Below are positions 22,497-37,729 of a DNA stretch of 64,000 nt, one piece after another (the first letter of the stretch is position 1; every line of letters starts with the position of its first letter). The notes beneath the pieces are model-generated. The model was not told the DNA's origin. It did not search any database and was given only the letters and a program-made list of their open reading frames with translations. The position numbers were made by a program, and so were the translations under genes. This DNA is from Dyella dinghuensis (lineage in GTDB: Bacteria > Pseudomonadota > Gammaproteobacteria > Xanthomonadales > Rhodanobacteraceae): assembly GCF_003977615.1 (NCBI RefSeq), contig NZ_RYZR01000005.1, positions 682,001-746,000 of the forward strand. The letters are read 5' to 3'.

Positions 22497-22557
22497 GGAG
22501 CTTGTCCCGCTTACCCGGACGTGGGATCCGGTCAAGGGAAAGCTCCGTTGCCGGAGC
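22497..22557 (+). promoter_or_regulatory. Anti-sequestor/sequestor switch over the nrdA ribosome-binding site
   Basis: Two exclusive helices are visible. In the first, GGAGCTTGTCCC (22497-22508) pairs with GGGAAAGCTCC (22536-22546) over 11 bp with one bulged G. In the second, GCTCCG (22542-22547) pairs with CGGAGC (22552-22557) around TTGC, burying the GGAG ribosome-binding site 8 bases before the nrdA ATG (22565). They share bases 22542-22546, so only one can form. This is the layout of a riboswitch acting on translation. Confidence 0.7.
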
Positions 22558-22564
22558 GTCCGAC

Positions 22565-25069
22565 ATGCAGCCTATTGATACCGAATCGCGCGAGCGCAAC
22601 GACGTTCGCGCGGACACGTCCGCCTTTTCTACCGACGCCTCGTCGGCCACTGCCACTCACACCACGATGTCCGTCACTGCCGAAGCACCGTTTGCCCTCA
22701 CGCCGCCGCACAACCCTGGCCAGATGCGCGTTACCAAGCGCAATGGCGGACAGGAGATCGTCGACGTCAACAAGATCGTTCGCGCCGTCACGCGCAGTGC
22801 AGAAGGCTTGCACGGCGTGGACCCGCTGCGCGTGTCGCTGAAAACCATCGGCGGTTTGTACGACGGTGCCACCACGCAGGAACTCGATCAGCTGTCCATC
22901 CGCACGGCGGCAGCGCTGACGGCGGAAGAGCCGGAATACGGCCAGCTTGCCGCGCGCCTGCTCGGCAGCTTTATCGATAAGGAAGTGAGCGGTCAGGAAA
23001 TCCAGAGCTTTTCGCAATCCATCGCGCGTGGTGCGGAACTTGGTCTGCTGAATGCGCGCCTGCGCGATTTTGTTGCGACGAATGCACGCAAACTCAACGA
23101 CGCAATCGATCCACTGGCGACACGCCGCTTCGAATACTTCGGCCTGCGCACGGTATACGACCGTTACCTGTTGCGCCATCCGCAGCTGCGCAAGGTGATC
23201 GAAACGCCGCAGCATTTCTTCATGCGCATTGCCTGCTCGCTAGGCGGCAATGAAATCGGCGAGACGCTTGAGCTGTATCGCCTGCTTTCCTCGCTGGAAT
23301 ACATCGCCAGCTCGCCGACGCTGTTCAATGCGGGCACGTCGCACGAGCAGCTCAGCTCCTGCTTCCTGCTCGATTCGCCAACGGATTCGCTGGAGTCGAT
23401 CTACGAGAAATACGGCGACGTCGCCAAGCTGAGCAAATTCGCGGGCGGCATTGGCCTGGCGTATTCGCGCGTGCGTTCGCGCGGCTCGCTGATCAAGGGC
23501 ACCAACGGTCACTCCAACGGTCTGGTGCCGTGGCTGAAGACGCTGGACGCATCCGTTGCCGCCGTGAATCAGGGCGGCAAACGCAAAGGCGCCGCGTGCG
23601 TGTATCTGGAACCGTGGCACGCAGATATCGAGGAATTCCTCGAACTGCGCGACAACACGGGCGATGAAGCGCGCCGCACGCACAACCTCAATCTGGCCAA
23701 TTGGATTCCCGACGAATTCATGCGCCGCGTCGAGCACGACGGCCATTGGTCGTTGTTCGATCCCAAGGTCGTGCCGCATTTCGTCGACACCTGGGGCGAG
23801 ACGTTCGAGCAGGCGTATCACAAGGCCGAAGCCGAAGGTTTGGCCGTCAAGACGGTGAAGGCGCGCGAGCTATATGCGCGCATGCTGCGCACGCTGGCGC
23901 AGACCGGCAACGGCTGGATGACATTCAAGGATCGTAGCAATGCGACCAGCAATCAGACGGCCAAAGCTGAAAACGTTATCCACCTCTCGAACCTCTGCAC
24001 CGAGATTCTGGAAGTCACCAACGCCAGCGAAACGGCGGTGTGCAATCTCGGCTCAGTCAATCTGGCGCGCCATGTCGTAGATGGTGCGTTCGATTTCGCC
24101 AAGCTCGCTTCGACGGTACGTACGGCCGTGCGTCAGCTCGATCGCGTGATCGATCTGAACTTCTACCCGATCGATACGGCAGCCGTTGCCAATCGCAAGT
24201 GGCGTCCGGTAGGTCTGGGCGTGATGGGCATGCAAGACGTGTTCTTCAAACTGCGCCTGCCGTTCGATTCGGCCGAAGCGCTGGAATTGTCGACGCGTAT
24301 CGCGGAAGAAATTTATTTCAACGCCCTGTCGCAATCCAACGCGCTTGCCGAACAGCACGGCGCACATCCTGGCTTTGCGGAAACCCGCGCAGCGAACGGC
24401 GAATTGCAATTCGACTATTGGACGAATGCCAAGCCGCACGATACGACGCGCTGGGACGCACTGCGCGAATCGATCAAGGCCAAAGGTCTGCGCAACTCGC
24501 TGCTGATCGCGATTGCACCGACGGCAACGATTGCGTCGATCGCCGGGTGCTACGAATGCATCGAGCCGCAGGTCAGCAACCTGTTCAAACGCGAAACGCT
24601 GTCGGGCGACTTCCTGGTGGTGAATCGCTATCTGTCCGATGAGCTGAAAGCGCTGGGCCTGTGGACCAGCGAAGTTCGCGACGCCATCAAGCTGGCCGAA
24701 GGTTCCATCCAGGGCATCACGGCGATTCCGGAACGTCTGCGTTCCATCTATCGCACCGTGTGGGAATTGCCGCAGAAGGCATTGATCGATCTCGCTGCTG
24801 CGCGCGGTGCATACATCGACCAGAGCCAGTCGCTGAACCTGTTCATGGAGAATCCGAACATCGGTCAGCTCAGCTCAATGTACATGTACGCGTGGAAATC
24901 CGGCGTCAAGACGACGTATTACCTGCGCTCGCGTCCGGCGACGAAGATCACCAAGACCACGGTGACCGCCGCTGCTGTGCAAGCGCCGGCGCCTGACGCG
25001 CAGGATGCTGCGACCGCCGCCGTGTTCTGTTCGCTGGAAAACCCCGAGTACTGCGAAGCCTGTCAGTGA
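22565..25069 (+). CDS. nrdA: Class I ribonucleoside-diphosphate reductase, alpha subunit
   Basis: Catalytic subunit that reduces ribonucleoside diphosphates to deoxyribonucleotides with the radical supplied by NrdB. The 834-residue protein has an extra Ser/Thr-rich N-terminus (about 1-50), an ATP-cone allosteric domain (about 52-145, MRVTKRNGGQEIVDVNKIV), and the ten-stranded barrel with substrate cysteines in EQLSSCFLL and AVCNLGSVNL and the active-site loop NLCTEILEV. The C-terminal tail ends YCEACQ, the CxxC-type shuttle pair for thioredoxin. ATG at 22565 is chosen because it follows the sequestered GGAG; the open frame upstream to 22502 lies within the switch RNA. nrdB follows after a 569-base interruption. 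Confidence 0.95.
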   Translation: MQPIDTESRERNDVRADTSAFSTDASSATATHTTMSVTAEAPFALTPPHNPGQMRVTKRNGGQEIVDVNKIVRAVTRSAEGLHGVDPLRVSLKTIGGLYDGATTQELDQLSIRTAAALTAEEPEYGQLAARLLGSFIDKEVSGQEIQSFSQSIARGAELGLLNARLRDFVATNARKLNDAIDPLATRRFEYFGLRTVYDRYLLRHPQLRKVIETPQHFFMRIACSLGGNEIGETLELYRLLSSLEYIASSPTLFNAGTSHEQLSSCFLLDSPTDSLESIYEKYGDVAKLSKFAGGIGLAYSRVRSRGSLIKGTNGHSNGLVPWLKTLDASVAAVNQGGKRKGAACVYLEPWHADIEEFLELRDNTGDEARRTHNLNLANWIPDEFMRRVEHDGHWSLFDPKVVPHFVDTWGETFEQAYHKAEAEGLAVKTVKARELYARMLRTLAQTGNGWMTFKDRSNATSNQTAKAENVIHLSNLCTEILEVTNASETAVCNLGSVNLARHVVDGAFDFAKLASTVRTAVRQLDRVIDLNFYPIDTAAVANRKWRPVGLGVMGMQDVFFKLRLPFDSAEALELSTRIAEEIYFNALSQSNALAEQHGAHPGFAETRAANGELQFDYWTNAKPHDTTRWDALRESIKAKGLRNSLLIAIAPTATIASIAGCYECIEPQVSNLFKRETLSGDFLVVNRYLSDELKALGLWTSEVRDAIKLAEGSIQGITAIPERLRSIYRTVWELPQKALIDLAAARGAYIDQSQSLNLFMENPNIGQLSSMYMYAWKSGVKTTYYLRSRPATKITKTTVTAAAVQAPAPDAQDAATAAVFCSLENPEYCEACQ

Positions 25070-25087
25070 TGGCAGTCGCTTGAGAAA

Positions 25088-25115
25088 GCTGGAATCCGGT
25101 TCATCGGATTCCAGC
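25088..25115. repeat. Repeat-derived hairpin downstream of nrdA
   Basis: GCTGGAATCCG (25088-25098) pairs perfectly with CGGATTCCAGC (25105-25115). There is no T run. The arms share CTGGAATCC/GGATTCCAG with the inverted repeats at 25487-25582, so it is probably one member of the same family. It could act as an attenuator between nrdA and nrdB. Confidence 0.6.
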
Positions 25116-25132
25116 CGTTCTGGAAAAGGCTC

Positions 25133-25429
25133 TTATTCAAAAATCTCCGAATAGAGATCTCGCCAATAAGGATTGGTCTTTTCAATGAGCTGGATCTTCC
25201 ACAAACGATTCCAGGCTTTCAGTGCCTTCTCGCGGGCAATCGCCGACTCTATCGAATCATGTATTTCGAACCAGACCAAATCATGCACGCTGTAACGTTT
25301 GGTGAAACCTTCCGCGAGATCATGCTTGTGTTGCCAGATGCGGCCACACAGGTCCGAAGTGACACCGATGTACAACGTAGCGTTGCGTCGATTCGCAAGG
25401 ATGTAGACGCACGGGATTCGTTCTCGCAT
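25133..25429 (-). CDS. GIY-YIG domain nuclease-like protein
   Basis: A 98-residue single-domain protein of the UPF0213/YhbQ-like branch of the GIY-YIG superfamily. The motif is VYILANRRNATLYIGVTSDL, followed by the conserved Arg in RIWQHK and an acidic residue within AIAREKALKAWNR. It has the size of stand-alone GIY-YIG proteins that are common in proteobacteria; their role is mostly unknown, with a DNA-end or structure nuclease suspected. It lies on the opposite strand between nrdA and nrdB and is flanked on both sides by repeats of one family, which suggests it arrived as a small cassette. No clear ribosome-binding site is visible. Confidence 0.82.
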   Translation of the reverse strand: MRERIPCVYILANRRNATLYIGVTSDLCGRIWQHKHDLAEGFTKRYSVHDLVWFEIHDSIESAIAREKALKAWNRLWKIQLIEKTNPYWRDLYSEIFE

Positions 25430-25486
25430 AAATTGAACTTGCTAACGTTTCGCCAGAGCTTGCCTCATCGCCTCCACACATACGAC

Positions 25487-25514
25487 CGTCATCCCAGCGA
25501 AAGCTGGGATCCAG
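25487..25514 (+). repeat. Extragenic palindromic repeat, copy A
   Basis: CGTCATCCCAGCGAAAGCTG followed by GGATCCAG; internally palindromic (CCCAGC/GCTGGG). Its reverse complement matches 25555-25582 with few differences. Confidence 0.75.
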
Positions 25515-25554
25515 CGTCTTTCGCCGACACAGATTGTCGAAAAAACAGAAGGCA

Positions 25555-25582
25555 CTGGATTCCAGCTTTCGCTGGAATGACG
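25555..25582 (-). repeat. Extragenic palindromic repeat, copy B (inverted)
   Basis: CTGGATTCCAGCTTTCGCTG followed by GAATGACG, inverted relative to copy A with 40 bases between them. It ends 56 bases before the nrdB start and may contribute to control of nrdB translation or transcription. Confidence 0.75.
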
Positions 25583-25638
25583 AGCAAAATCCATCGTACA
25601 CATCAAACAACCCGATAAGCCTGGTCAAGGAACACTCT

Positions 25639-26664
25639 ATGTCCGCCCAACCCACTCGCGATTCGCACATCCTCGACCCGGGTTTCGAACTCACGCTGCG
25701 CCCGATGCGCTACCCCGAGTTCTACGAGATGTATCGCAACGCGATCAAGAACACCTGGACGGTGGAGGAAGTCGATTTTTCGCTTGACGTCACAGACCTG
25801 AAATCGAAGATGTCTGATGCGGATCGCCATTTGATCCACCGTCTCGTGGCATTCTTCGCCACCGGCGATACGATCGTGGCGAACAATCTTGTGTTGAATC
25901 TTTACCAGCACATCAACGCGCCGGAAGCGCGCATGTATCTGTCGCGCCAGTTGTATGAGGAAGCGCTGCATGTGCAGTTCTATCTCACGCTGCTGGACAC
26001 CTACATTCCAGATCCGAACGAACGCAACAAAGCATTCGCTGCGATTCAGAACATCCCTTCGATTCGCCAGAAAGGCGCGTTCTGCTTCAAGTGGATGGAC
26101 TCCATCCAAAGCGTGCAGCGGCTGGAAACACGTGAACAGCGCCGTCAGTTCCTGCTCAATCTGATCTGCTTCGCTGCATGCATCGAAGGTTTGTTCTTCT
26201 TCGCCGCCTTCGCTTACGTGTACTTCCTGCGCTCGCGCGGTTTGCTGCATGGCTTGGCTTCCGGCACGAACTGGGTGTTCCGCGACGAATCCGGGCACAT
26301 GGGCTTCGCCTTTGAAGTGGTGCGCACCGTGCGCGCACAGGAGCCCGATTTGTTCGATGCAGAGATGCGCACGCAGGTGGAAGCGATGCTGGAAGAAGCC
26401 ATCGCCTGCGAAACGCAGTTTGCCGAAGACGTGCTCTCCGGCGGCGTGGCTGGCTTGTCGGTGAAGGATATGCGCCAGTATCTGGAATACTGCGCCGATC
26501 AGCGCCTCACACAATTGGATATGCCGAAGAAATATGGCGCGAAGAATCCATTCGACTTCATGGATCTCCAGGACGTGCAGGAAGTGACGAACTTCTTCGA
26601 GCGTCGCGTCTCCGCGTATCAGGTAGGCGTGGAAGGCGACGTCGCCTTCGACATGACGTTCTGA
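25639..26664 (+). CDS. nrdB: Class I ribonucleoside-diphosphate reductase, beta (radical-generating) subunit
   Basis: A 341-residue ferritin-like protein that stores the radical used by NrdA. Metal ligands are visible as D77 (ATGDTIV), E108 and H111 (EEALH), E183 (CIEGL), E217 and H220 (RDESGH). The residue four after H111 is Y115, the tyrosyl-radical position. Overall the sequence (for example NNLVLNLYQHINAPEARMYL) looks like the Chlamydia-type subfamily, in which that Tyr is Phe and the first ligand Glu; here both are the ordinary Tyr and Asp, so a di-iron/tyrosyl class Ia cofactor is expected. Start at 25639 has AAGGA upstream. A GNAT gene begins 5 bases after the stop. Confidence 0.94.
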   Translation: MSAQPTRDSHILDPGFELTLRPMRYPEFYEMYRNAIKNTWTVEEVDFSLDVTDLKSKMSDADRHLIHRLVAFFATGDTIVANNLVLNLYQHINAPEARMYLSRQLYEEALHVQFYLTLLDTYIPDPNERNKAFAAIQNIPSIRQKGAFCFKWMDSIQSVQRLETREQRRQFLLNLICFAACIEGLFFFAAFAYVYFLRSRGLLHGLASGTNWVFRDESGHMGFAFEVVRTVRAQEPDLFDAEMRTQVEAMLEEAIACETQFAEDVLSGGVAGLSVKDMRQYLEYCADQRLTQLDMPKKYGAKNPFDFMDLQDVQEVTNFFERRVSAYQVGVEGDVAFDMTF

Positions 26665-36805: not shown

Positions 36806-36988
36806 AGATTCTCTGCGTTTAATCCATCATCGATCATCCCGCGATCACGTTTATCCCGTCATTCCCGCGAAGGCCGGAGGCGTTTTACAACAGCGAAGCT
36901 GGTCATCCAGTGGCGTTATCGTTTGGTTGTGCGCTATCGCCAGGTTGCTCGCCTGCGCGGCGGGCGTTTCGTGCCTCTGCCGAGGCCC

Positions 36989-37039
36989 GAGTCACTTTTC
37001 TTTGCGGGCCCAAAGAAAAGTAACCCAAAGAAATGGCCT
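36989..37039 (+). repeat. GAGTCAC core repeat, copy 1
   Basis: Core GAGTCACTTTTCTTTGCGGG followed by CCCAAAGAAAAGTAACCCAAAG and AAATGGCCT. The CTTTTCTTTG...CAAAGAAAAG part forms a 10-bp hairpin. Orientation forward. Confidence 0.8.
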
Positions 37040-37306
37040 GAAGGGCTCTCAGCAATGGCTGGATAAAAACACGGAAGGGCTGTGCCCACATGAGGCGTTA
37101 CGTTCCAAATACGCCGCATCGCTACACCGCAACGCGTTGGGCCCCAGAGGGCTTAGAGCATGCGGCCGCCCGTCTTGCGGAGCGACTCGCTTTCAGCCCT
37201 CACCGCTCAATACTCGCGGTTTAGCAGCTCCGCGGAAGCGGGCACGCGAAATATTTCGCTGGAGATGAGCTGCAATGCTTATTTACCTCAACAACAAAAG
37301 CTTTTG

Positions 37307-37357
37307 AGGCCATTTCTTTGGGTTACTTTTCTTTGGGCCCGCAAAGAAAAGTGACTC
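37307..37357 (-). repeat. GAGTCAC core repeat, copy 2 (inverted)
   Basis: Almost an exact reverse complement of copy 1 (36989-37039), from AGGCCATTTCTTTGGG to AAGAAAAGTGACTC, with only one or two differences. Confidence 0.8.
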
Positions 37358-37434
37358 GGCTGCCGGCAGGCAGTCGAAACGCCCGCTGCGCAAGCGGCAA
37401 ACTCGCGATAGCTCAGCAACAGCAAGAGCCTTTG

Positions 37435-37485
37435 AGGCCATTTCTTTGGATCACTTTTCTTTGGGCACGCAGAGAAAAGTGACTC
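37435..37485 (-). repeat. GAGTCAC core repeat, copy 3 (inverted)
   Basis: Same direction as copy 2, starting AGGCCATTTCTTTGGATC and ending AGAGAAAAGTGACTC. It is somewhat more diverged (GGGCACGCAGAG in place of GGGCCCGCAAAG). Confidence 0.8.
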
Positions 37486-37729
37486 GGCCGCTCGCAAGCG
37501 GACGAAACGGCCGCCACGCAGGCGAGCAGCCTGGCGATAAGGCATCAACGGGACGATACAGTCACTGGATGACCAGCTTCGCTGTTGTAAAGCGCTTCCG
37601 GCCTGCGCCGGAATGACGGTGAGGTGATGCGTGACGGTGAGGAATGGGATGGACGGTGAAGCGGGATGACGAGATAAACGTTGTCGCTAGTTGGTCATTG
37701 ACGACAGCACGATGCGAAAGCACAACCCA

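Follow-up and report, generated by a model that had tools for sequence, protein, structure and literature searches.

Several small-enzyme systems resemble the locus described here. In the RAYT/REPIN systems, one small gene for a repetitive extragenic palindrome (REP)-associated tyrosine transposase (RAYT, or TnpA-REP) is flanked by GTAG-tagged REPs and accompanied by many dispersed, non-autonomous REP pairs. A different superfamily, the CGTC-tagged palindromes, was named in a 2013 survey and found in five phyla; the survey could name no enzyme for these REPs and identified the CGTC-1 repeats of Neisseria with the dRS3 repeats (Di Nocera et al., PMC3733652). The locus considered here lies between the ribonucleotide reductase genes nrdA and nrdB in a 64-kb stretch of the Dyella dinghuensis genome, hereafter called the window, and consists of a gene for a small GIY-YIG nuclease and a set of REPs. 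These REPs are like those of the CGTC superfamily (PMC3733652) in their CGTC head, palindromic stem and head-to-head dimers, and unlike them in accompanying a nuclease gene. The arrangement of one REP-flanked enzyme gene and many dispersed REP pairs is shared with RAYT/REPIN, whereas the enzyme is a GIY-YIG protein instead of an HUH tyrosine transposase and the tag is CGTC instead of GTAG. Free-standing GIY-YIG homing endonucleases are similar in domain, in presence or absence at fixed intergenic sites and in conflict with the species tree; they differ in that here no intron or intein was seen, repeats flank the gene, and dispersed copies occur in a congener.

The closest counterpart is the Ssn protein of Neisseria, a GIY-YIG protein that reportedly cuts repeats of this kind when they are single-stranded and whose homologues are said to match their own repeats. 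In N. gonorrhoeae, a gene with CGTC repeats on both sides encodes a homologue, which we take to be Ssn, that is 63% identical over 92 amino acids to the protein of the window. Ssn nucleases are closely homologous to the Neisseria enzyme and have cognate repeats beside the gene, and both features were found here. With a Neisseria homologue among CGTC repeats, and given the reported work on Ssn, the pairing of nuclease and repeat is already known in kind, although a search of titles and the beginnings of abstracts returned no work linking GIY-YIG nucleases to REPs. Both are small stand-alone GIY-YIG proteins; the difference is that the gene of the window lies within a ribonucleotide reductase operon and that a related unit in a congener has transposon-like copies and gene-less derivatives. 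What is new here is the anatomy of a mobile unit with its decay products, the conflict of two lineages at nrdA-nrdB, and the solo-REP sites.

The nuclease genes and CGTC REPs occur together, repeat type varies with nuclease lineage, occupation of the nrdA-nrdB site differs between genomes in a way that disagrees with the species tree, and one congener (G014) holds dispersed gene copies and gene-less derivatives. From these observations we infer, with a probability of about 0.6, that nuclease gene and REPs form one cassette, which would be the autonomous unit of a selfish element built on REPs; the nuclease would recognise and cut the REPs and drive the movement of the unit.

The original prediction described a gap of 569 bases holding a reverse-strand GIY-YIG gene, and the coordinates agree with it: the stop codon of nrdA (TGA, 25067-25069) and the start codon of nrdB (ATG, 25639, chosen by conservation among relatives) leave exactly 569 bp, and the product of the intervening gene matches PF01541 (Table 1). 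The nrdA product matches the Pfam family Ribonuc_red_lgC (E 3.9e-196) and the nrdB product Ribonuc_red_sm (E 5.9e-81); the listed TTG start of nrdA is possibly not the true one. No clear ribosome-binding site was seen for the nuclease gene. The predicted inverted pair of related repeats proved to be two head-to-head CGTC-tagged REPs, whose 34-nucleotide arms (25487-25520 and 25549-25582) are 88% complementary. The other predicted element, a repeat-derived hairpin, is indeed a hairpin and stands where the 3' ends of nrdA and of the nuclease gene converge, but it falls short of a full REP and consists, by eye, of two inverted half-REPs (GAAAGCTGGAATCC ... GGATTCCAGC). Folded as single-stranded DNA, the REP pair reached -32.1 kcal/mol (z -7.7), a single REP -8.6 kcal/mol (z -6.0) and the hairpin -14.5 kcal/mol, and in each case none of 200 shuffled sequences folded as well. 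A scan of the window with 4 mismatches allowed found just three sites, namely the two REPs of the locus and a variant at 36857, whereas the reversed window gave no site; therefore, chance hairpins were rejected as an explanation. A known RNA element was likewise rejected: the region of the REP pair (25470-25604) matches Wolbachia sRNA 46 (WsnRNA46, RF02625) of Rfam with 39 bits, under the gathering score of 65.3, and Rfam microRNA matches were taken as hairpin noise. It is possible that the family RF02625 is a CGTC REP dimer in its own right.

Table 1. Features of the nrdA-nrdB junction in the window
Feature	Position	Strand	Basis or remark
nrdA, class I ribonucleotide reductase large subunit	22502..25069	+	left border; Pfam match
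Palindrome of two inverted half-REPs	25088..25115	none	12-bp stem; fold z -5.9
Small GIY-YIG nuclease gene, 98 amino acids, REP-associated subfamily	25133..25429	-	PF01541; conserved residues; model and fold; start and stop codons
CGTC-tagged REP, CGTCATCCCAGCGAAAGCTGGGATCCAG	25487..25514	+	repeat match and fold
Second CGTC-tagged REP, head-to-head partner, CGTCATTCCAGCGAAAGCTGGAATCCAG	25555..25582	-	repeat match and fold
nrdB, ribonucleotide reductase small subunit	25639..26664	+	right border; Pfam match

The nuclease belongs to the GIY-YIG superfamily, as it passes the curated cut-off of PF01541 (E 6.8e-15; 55.6 bits against 22.6) and retains the invariant residues: Y9, Y20, G22, R30, E67 and N86 are the same across 30 sequences and likewise across 21, and they are of the catalytic type. 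Its predicted structure has a mean confidence (pLDDT) of 91.7, and the best matches in the PDB are GIY-YIG structures with marginal E values, led by the UPF0213 protein 1zg2 (E 4.6e-3); a sequence search of solved structures returned repeat proteins, taken as chance matches, and a UPF0213 protein at E 0.57. Because the residues are invariant and the model resembles GIY-YIG structures, the protein should be active. PF01541 was the sole Pfam match at E 0.001, and thus the HUH domain with catalytic tyrosine of RAYT and IS200/IS605 transposases was not found. Other assignments were tried and rejected, namely a GIY-YIG homing endonuclease of group I introns (TIGR01453, 13.8 bits against a cut-off of 56.05, the gene being intergenic and on the opposite strand), a known defence-system gene (best PADLOC match E 0.014), and a phage-borne gene (no relative at E 1e-5 in 50,697 phage records).

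The window genome and 60 relatives (61 genomes) gave 142 GIY-YIG matches, of which 60 with long frames were taken as uvrC, 72 were analysed and 10 were left out (eight that were weak or partial and two of good quality, G037:C6 and G059:C221). By score to the protein of the window, 41 of the 72 genes reach at least 60 bits and the other 31, including those like UPF0213 (YhbQ), reach at most 27.5 bits or do not match, although UPF0213 proteins are alike in size and fold. This gap in score separates the two sets, and on this sequence criterion the gene of the window is a member of a distinct subfamily of small GIY-YIG nucleases. Of the 41 subfamily genes, 33 have a REP with at most 2 mismatches no farther than 300 bp away, and none of the other 31 genes does (Fisher's exact test, 4e-13); the eight subfamily genes lacking a matching REP have, by eye, variant CGTC palindromes instead. 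As a control for neighbourhood, and not as members of the family, 16 uvrC loci totalling 100 kb contained 2 REPs.

The association extends well beyond these genomes. In a collection of 84,980 species, the 80 best-scoring of at least 574 loci, which are biased to close relatives by that choice, had a CGTC-tagged hairpin within 250 bp in 72 cases, against 12 of 80 with reversed flanks; the density of such hairpins was at least 4.9 matches per kb near the gene and 0.40 per kb past 700 bp, with overlapping matches counted separately in both. The titles of these loci include Planctomycetes, Elusimicrobia, Anaerolineae, Nitrospinae and several Proteobacteria. Two of them (L131 and L186) duplicate G032 and were counted among the 80 but excluded from the comparison of REP similarity described below, while L135, a duplicate of G015, was kept there. 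A plasmid collection had 33 records with a match; six places were read, and four had a CGTC hairpin within 350 bp. Together, these comparisons suggest that the small GIY-YIG subfamily genes and CGTC REPs belong together. In the Azospirillum lipoferum plasmid AZO_p3 (L310), a subfamily gene with a REP pair on each side lies between sufB and sufC, so that a cassette of this kind interrupts a further operon besides nrdA-nrdB. Two records that the collection, PLSDB, files as plasmids (L309, Neisseria gonorrhoeae, 2.17 Mb; L311, Aeromonas caviae, 4.94 Mb) look like chromosomes, judging from their size.

The number of REPs in a genome also varies with the gene. Of the 29 genomes that have a subfamily gene, 26 contained at least 5 REPs, as did 7 of the 32 without one among the 72 analysed genes, a restriction that follows from the 10 matches left out (p 9e-8); outside the genus, with one entry per genus, the figures were 13 of 16 and 4 of 23 (p 1.8e-4). 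Three REP subtypes had their highest copy number in genomes with the adjoining nuclease clade (p 0.0005, 0.008 and 0.005), and the last two associations held when the copies at the loci were excluded (p 0.008 and 0.015). The subtype test used dispersed copies in 23 nuclease-bearing genomes of the family and largely avoids the bias of shared descent; these tests of number and subtype, and the comparisons of similarity that follow, ignore kinship among genomes. In a comparison of similarity, the REPs of a gene were nearer to those of the closest foreign nuclease than to those of the paralogue in the same genome for 18 of 18 genes in 9 genomes, a result inflated by descent because orthologous loci inherit common REPs, and the margin was narrow for both genes of G044. 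Over 93 genes, REP and nuclease similarity were correlated (Mantel rho 0.22, p 0.001). REP number and subtype thus tend to follow the nuclease lineage.

The genome of the window (4.2 Mb) contains 122 sites within 3 mismatches of GTCATTCCNGCGAAAGCNGGAATCCA and none for the backward pattern; with their tag, palindromic stem and dispersal, and with plus/minus pairs among many of those listed, these are CGTC-tagged REPs. Most of 20 pairs inspected, hand-picked mostly for a spacing of about 75 bp (wider pairs exist), have the layout CGTC..CCAGTGNCGA, a variable centre, and ..CACTGG..GACG. The genome has three GIY-YIG matches: a 611-amino-acid frame (uvrC), the gene of the window and a second small gene. 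A check of further GIY-YIG genes for the same repeats had been proposed, and the second gene is likewise REP-flanked, with a partial REP on one side and, directly after its stop codon, a full inverted REP on the other; its neighbours we take to be a phoH-like gene and thiD. The two genes differ in REP type, CCAGCGAAAGCTGG for the gene of the window and CCGGCGCAGGCCGG for its paralogue, and 92 sites, the majority, are of the paralogue's subtype. A second composite was noted in the window at 36857-37618, where extended CGTC REPs (CGTCATTCC..TTTTACAACAGCGAAGCTGGTCATCCAG and a near-inverse) bound inverted repeats with TTTTCTTTGGGCCCGCAAAGAAAA; an extended REP end like that of this composite flanks GIY-YIG copies in G014.

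Across the genus (16 genomes, including that of the window), the gene is present at nrdA-nrdB in 10 and absent in 6, so that it is not a feature of all relatives, and the repeat association is wide; neither of the outcomes named as refuting the original prediction was thus seen. The seven genomes of lineage A have the order REP(+), REP(-), gene, REP(+), and most of these REPs belong to the CCCGG..ACCCA type; the three of lineage B, including that of the window, have the gene followed by a REP(+)/REP(-) pair of AATCC/GATCC type. The expected empty sites thus exist, but most of them are not clean, because four of the six retain a solo REP and a fifth holds another CGTC palindrome. In G012, G003 and G005 one solo REP(+) stands just past the nrdA stop codon. 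The solo REP of G007 is like REP1 of G010 in its left part, whereas its right part corresponds to REP3 of G010 and the sequence downstream of it (3 differences in 44 bases, 23 consecutive ones identical, with an extra palindrome in the loop); it reads as a REP1/REP3 hybrid. The other two empty sites have a double-headed CGTC palindrome (G002) and an unrelated palindrome (G013). Outside the genus, 5 of 20 genomes have the cassette at nrdA-nrdB (G018, G022, G024, G027 and G032), with the gene of G022 broken by a stop codon and left out of tree building, and a further one, in G030, is split over contig ends. A second junction, phoH-thiD, also recurs, in 6 of the 41 subfamily genes and in 2 named loci of the 80 with both neighbours.

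Some features of these gaps were seen by eye. A related open reading frame of about 78 codons occurs in the nrdA-nrdB gaps of G005, G003, G014, G033 and G026, with or without the cassette, and its G005 copy matched no family in Pfam. The gaps of G036, G028, G017, G025 and G029 are free of CGTC REPs but have other inverted repeats, for example CCCTCTCCC..GGGAGAGGG, as if the nrdA-nrdB gap collected palindromes in general. Some REPs in the gaps of G024, G018 and G007 carry a second palindrome inside the loop, which suggests that REP hairpin loops take insertions.

The history of the junction disagrees with that of the species. In a species tree built from uvrC and nrdB, G000 of lineage B is joined with G011 of lineage A with moderate support (88/86), and G015 and G004, also of lineage B, fall in two other groups holding members of lineage A. 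The ten nrdA-nrdB nuclease genes reject the species tree (approximately unbiased (AU) test, p 2.5e-23), the reverse test of the nuclease tree on the species data likewise ended in rejection (p 2e-7), and uvrC rejects the lineage-B species as one clade (p 1.25e-4). A clade of lineages A and B together was not rejected (p 0.31), nor was one that also included G027 (p-AU 0.46). The view of the original prediction that a cassette had entered the operon is therefore partly supported: nuclease and repeats do form a cassette, but the junction does not have the look of a single recent insertion into a clean operon, because the cassette recurs there outside the genus, the lineages conflict with the species tree and most empty sites retain CGTC palindromes. 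The insert may, as the original prediction also proposed, make the expression of the two subunits unequal.

The transposon-like features come from G014, where a related gene has three copies in unrelated surroundings; two of these copies have both outer arms and the third lacks most of the right arm. Twenty stretches were fetched, 19 of them from G014, and all were screened for gene sequence; 15 were inspected in detail, the complex ones (L265, L267, L272, L277 and L278) being outside that inspection. Of the 19 further stretches of G014, 16 had no detectable gene sequence, and at least 10 had both arms and no intact gene. Three retain pieces of the gene: 81 and 36 bp of its two ends in L262, 19 and 14 bp of the two ends in L269, and its first 19 bp only in L261. 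Terminal inverted repeats, dispersed copies and internal deletions, as expected of a transposon with miniature inverted-repeat transposable elements (MITEs), were found together for the G014 unit only, and these stretches resemble non-autonomous derivatives of a transposon.

According to the proposed explanation, a REP would become a hairpin when single-stranded, during replication or DNA uptake, and the nuclease would recognise and nick its own cognate hairpin. Repair or recombination via REP homology might then copy, move or delete the DNA between REPs. In this view REP-gene-REP is the autonomous unit, the scattered head-to-head REP pairs would descend from it as gene-less, MITE-like offspring, and solo REPs would be empty or excised sites. 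A broader form of this proposal, which we put forward tentatively and at somewhat less than even odds, is that CGTC REPs are the non-autonomous offspring of widespread minimal mobile elements whose sole protein is a GIY-YIG single-strand nuclease of about 100 amino acids, with no transposase.

Beside the common descent behind the comparison of paralogues and the kinship that the tests leave aside, several observations weigh against the reading as a selfish REP-nuclease element. No target-site duplication was found, and a search in relatives for two of the G014 places gave no empty site with both flanks, one flank being conserved. Two rhizobial homologues among the six plasmid-collection loci have no CGTC hairpin within 350 bp. 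The REP subtype of the window's own gene has just 5 sites in the genome, 2 of them at the locus, and the bulk of the REPs fits the paralogue. Weaker cross terms in the subtype test reach p 0.03 and 0.04; G004 lacks the nuclease clade of certain subtypes and yet holds 35 and 47 copies of them, and G035 (39 copies) and G008 (21) are further exceptions to the matching. REPs persist in genomes without a subfamily gene among those analysed, such as G002 (135), G028 (82), G036 (60), G013 (42) and G003 (24), and the gene-bearing genomes G039, G045 and G046 hold 4, 0 and 0. Furthermore, nrdB alone did not reject one lineage-B clade (p 0.147), so that a homologous exchange of the whole nrdA-nrdB region is possible.

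This last result would also fit an enzyme that spreads only by homing, that is, between alleles of one site by break repair on the nrdA and nrdB flanks without transposition, as would the phylogenetic conflict at nrdA-nrdB and the fact that the cassette recurs at two fixed junctions. However, homing does not lead one to expect the G014 copies at places with unrelated flanks, and the protein resembles group I intron endonucleases weakly; we consider it quite unlikely. The conflict could alternatively have arisen if cassettes A and B had stood side by side at nrdA-nrdB in the ancestor of the family and been lost differentially, with no later movement there. Genes of both lineages at one junction, the presence of B in several genera and the unrejected clade of A, B and G027 agree with such an ancestor, but none of the 36 genomes in which the junction was read has both cassettes, G000 and G011 are joined in the tree with moderate support and yet differ in lineage, and B recurs in three parts of the tree, which makes this history very unlikely.

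The role of the nuclease itself is the issue in two other explanations. It could be a resident, site-specific single-strand nuclease that tunes the uptake of transforming DNA or recombination at REPs, as is reported for Ssn of Neisseria, with REPs as its targets and movement as a by-product of homologous recombination at repeats. The Neisseria homologue with CGTC repeats on both sides and the lack of a relative in the phage records are in keeping with such a function, but a regulator need not multiply, and the dispersed copies and gene-less derivatives in G014 and the conflict of lineages at one site look selfish; we regard this alternative as somewhat unlikely. If instead some other enzyme, or slippage during replication, moved the repeats, the nuclease gene would merely hitch-hike between REPs, as the REP-rich genomes G002, G028 and G036 without an analysed subfamily gene might indicate. 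We strongly doubt this, since REP number correlates with nuclease lineage in a subtype-specific manner, the adjacency is frequent, and the 2013 survey found no transposase regularly beside CGTC REPs (PMC3733652). The selfish REP-nuclease element therefore remains the reading that we prefer.

Adjacency, copy number and subtype tie the CGTC palindromes to one subfamily of tiny GIY-YIG nucleases. If the broader proposal is true, the CGTC REP superfamily would gain, across many phyla, the enzyme that it has lacked, and this can now be tested with one small protein and short oligonucleotides. The related species with occupied and empty nrdA-nrdB sites provide a natural experiment.
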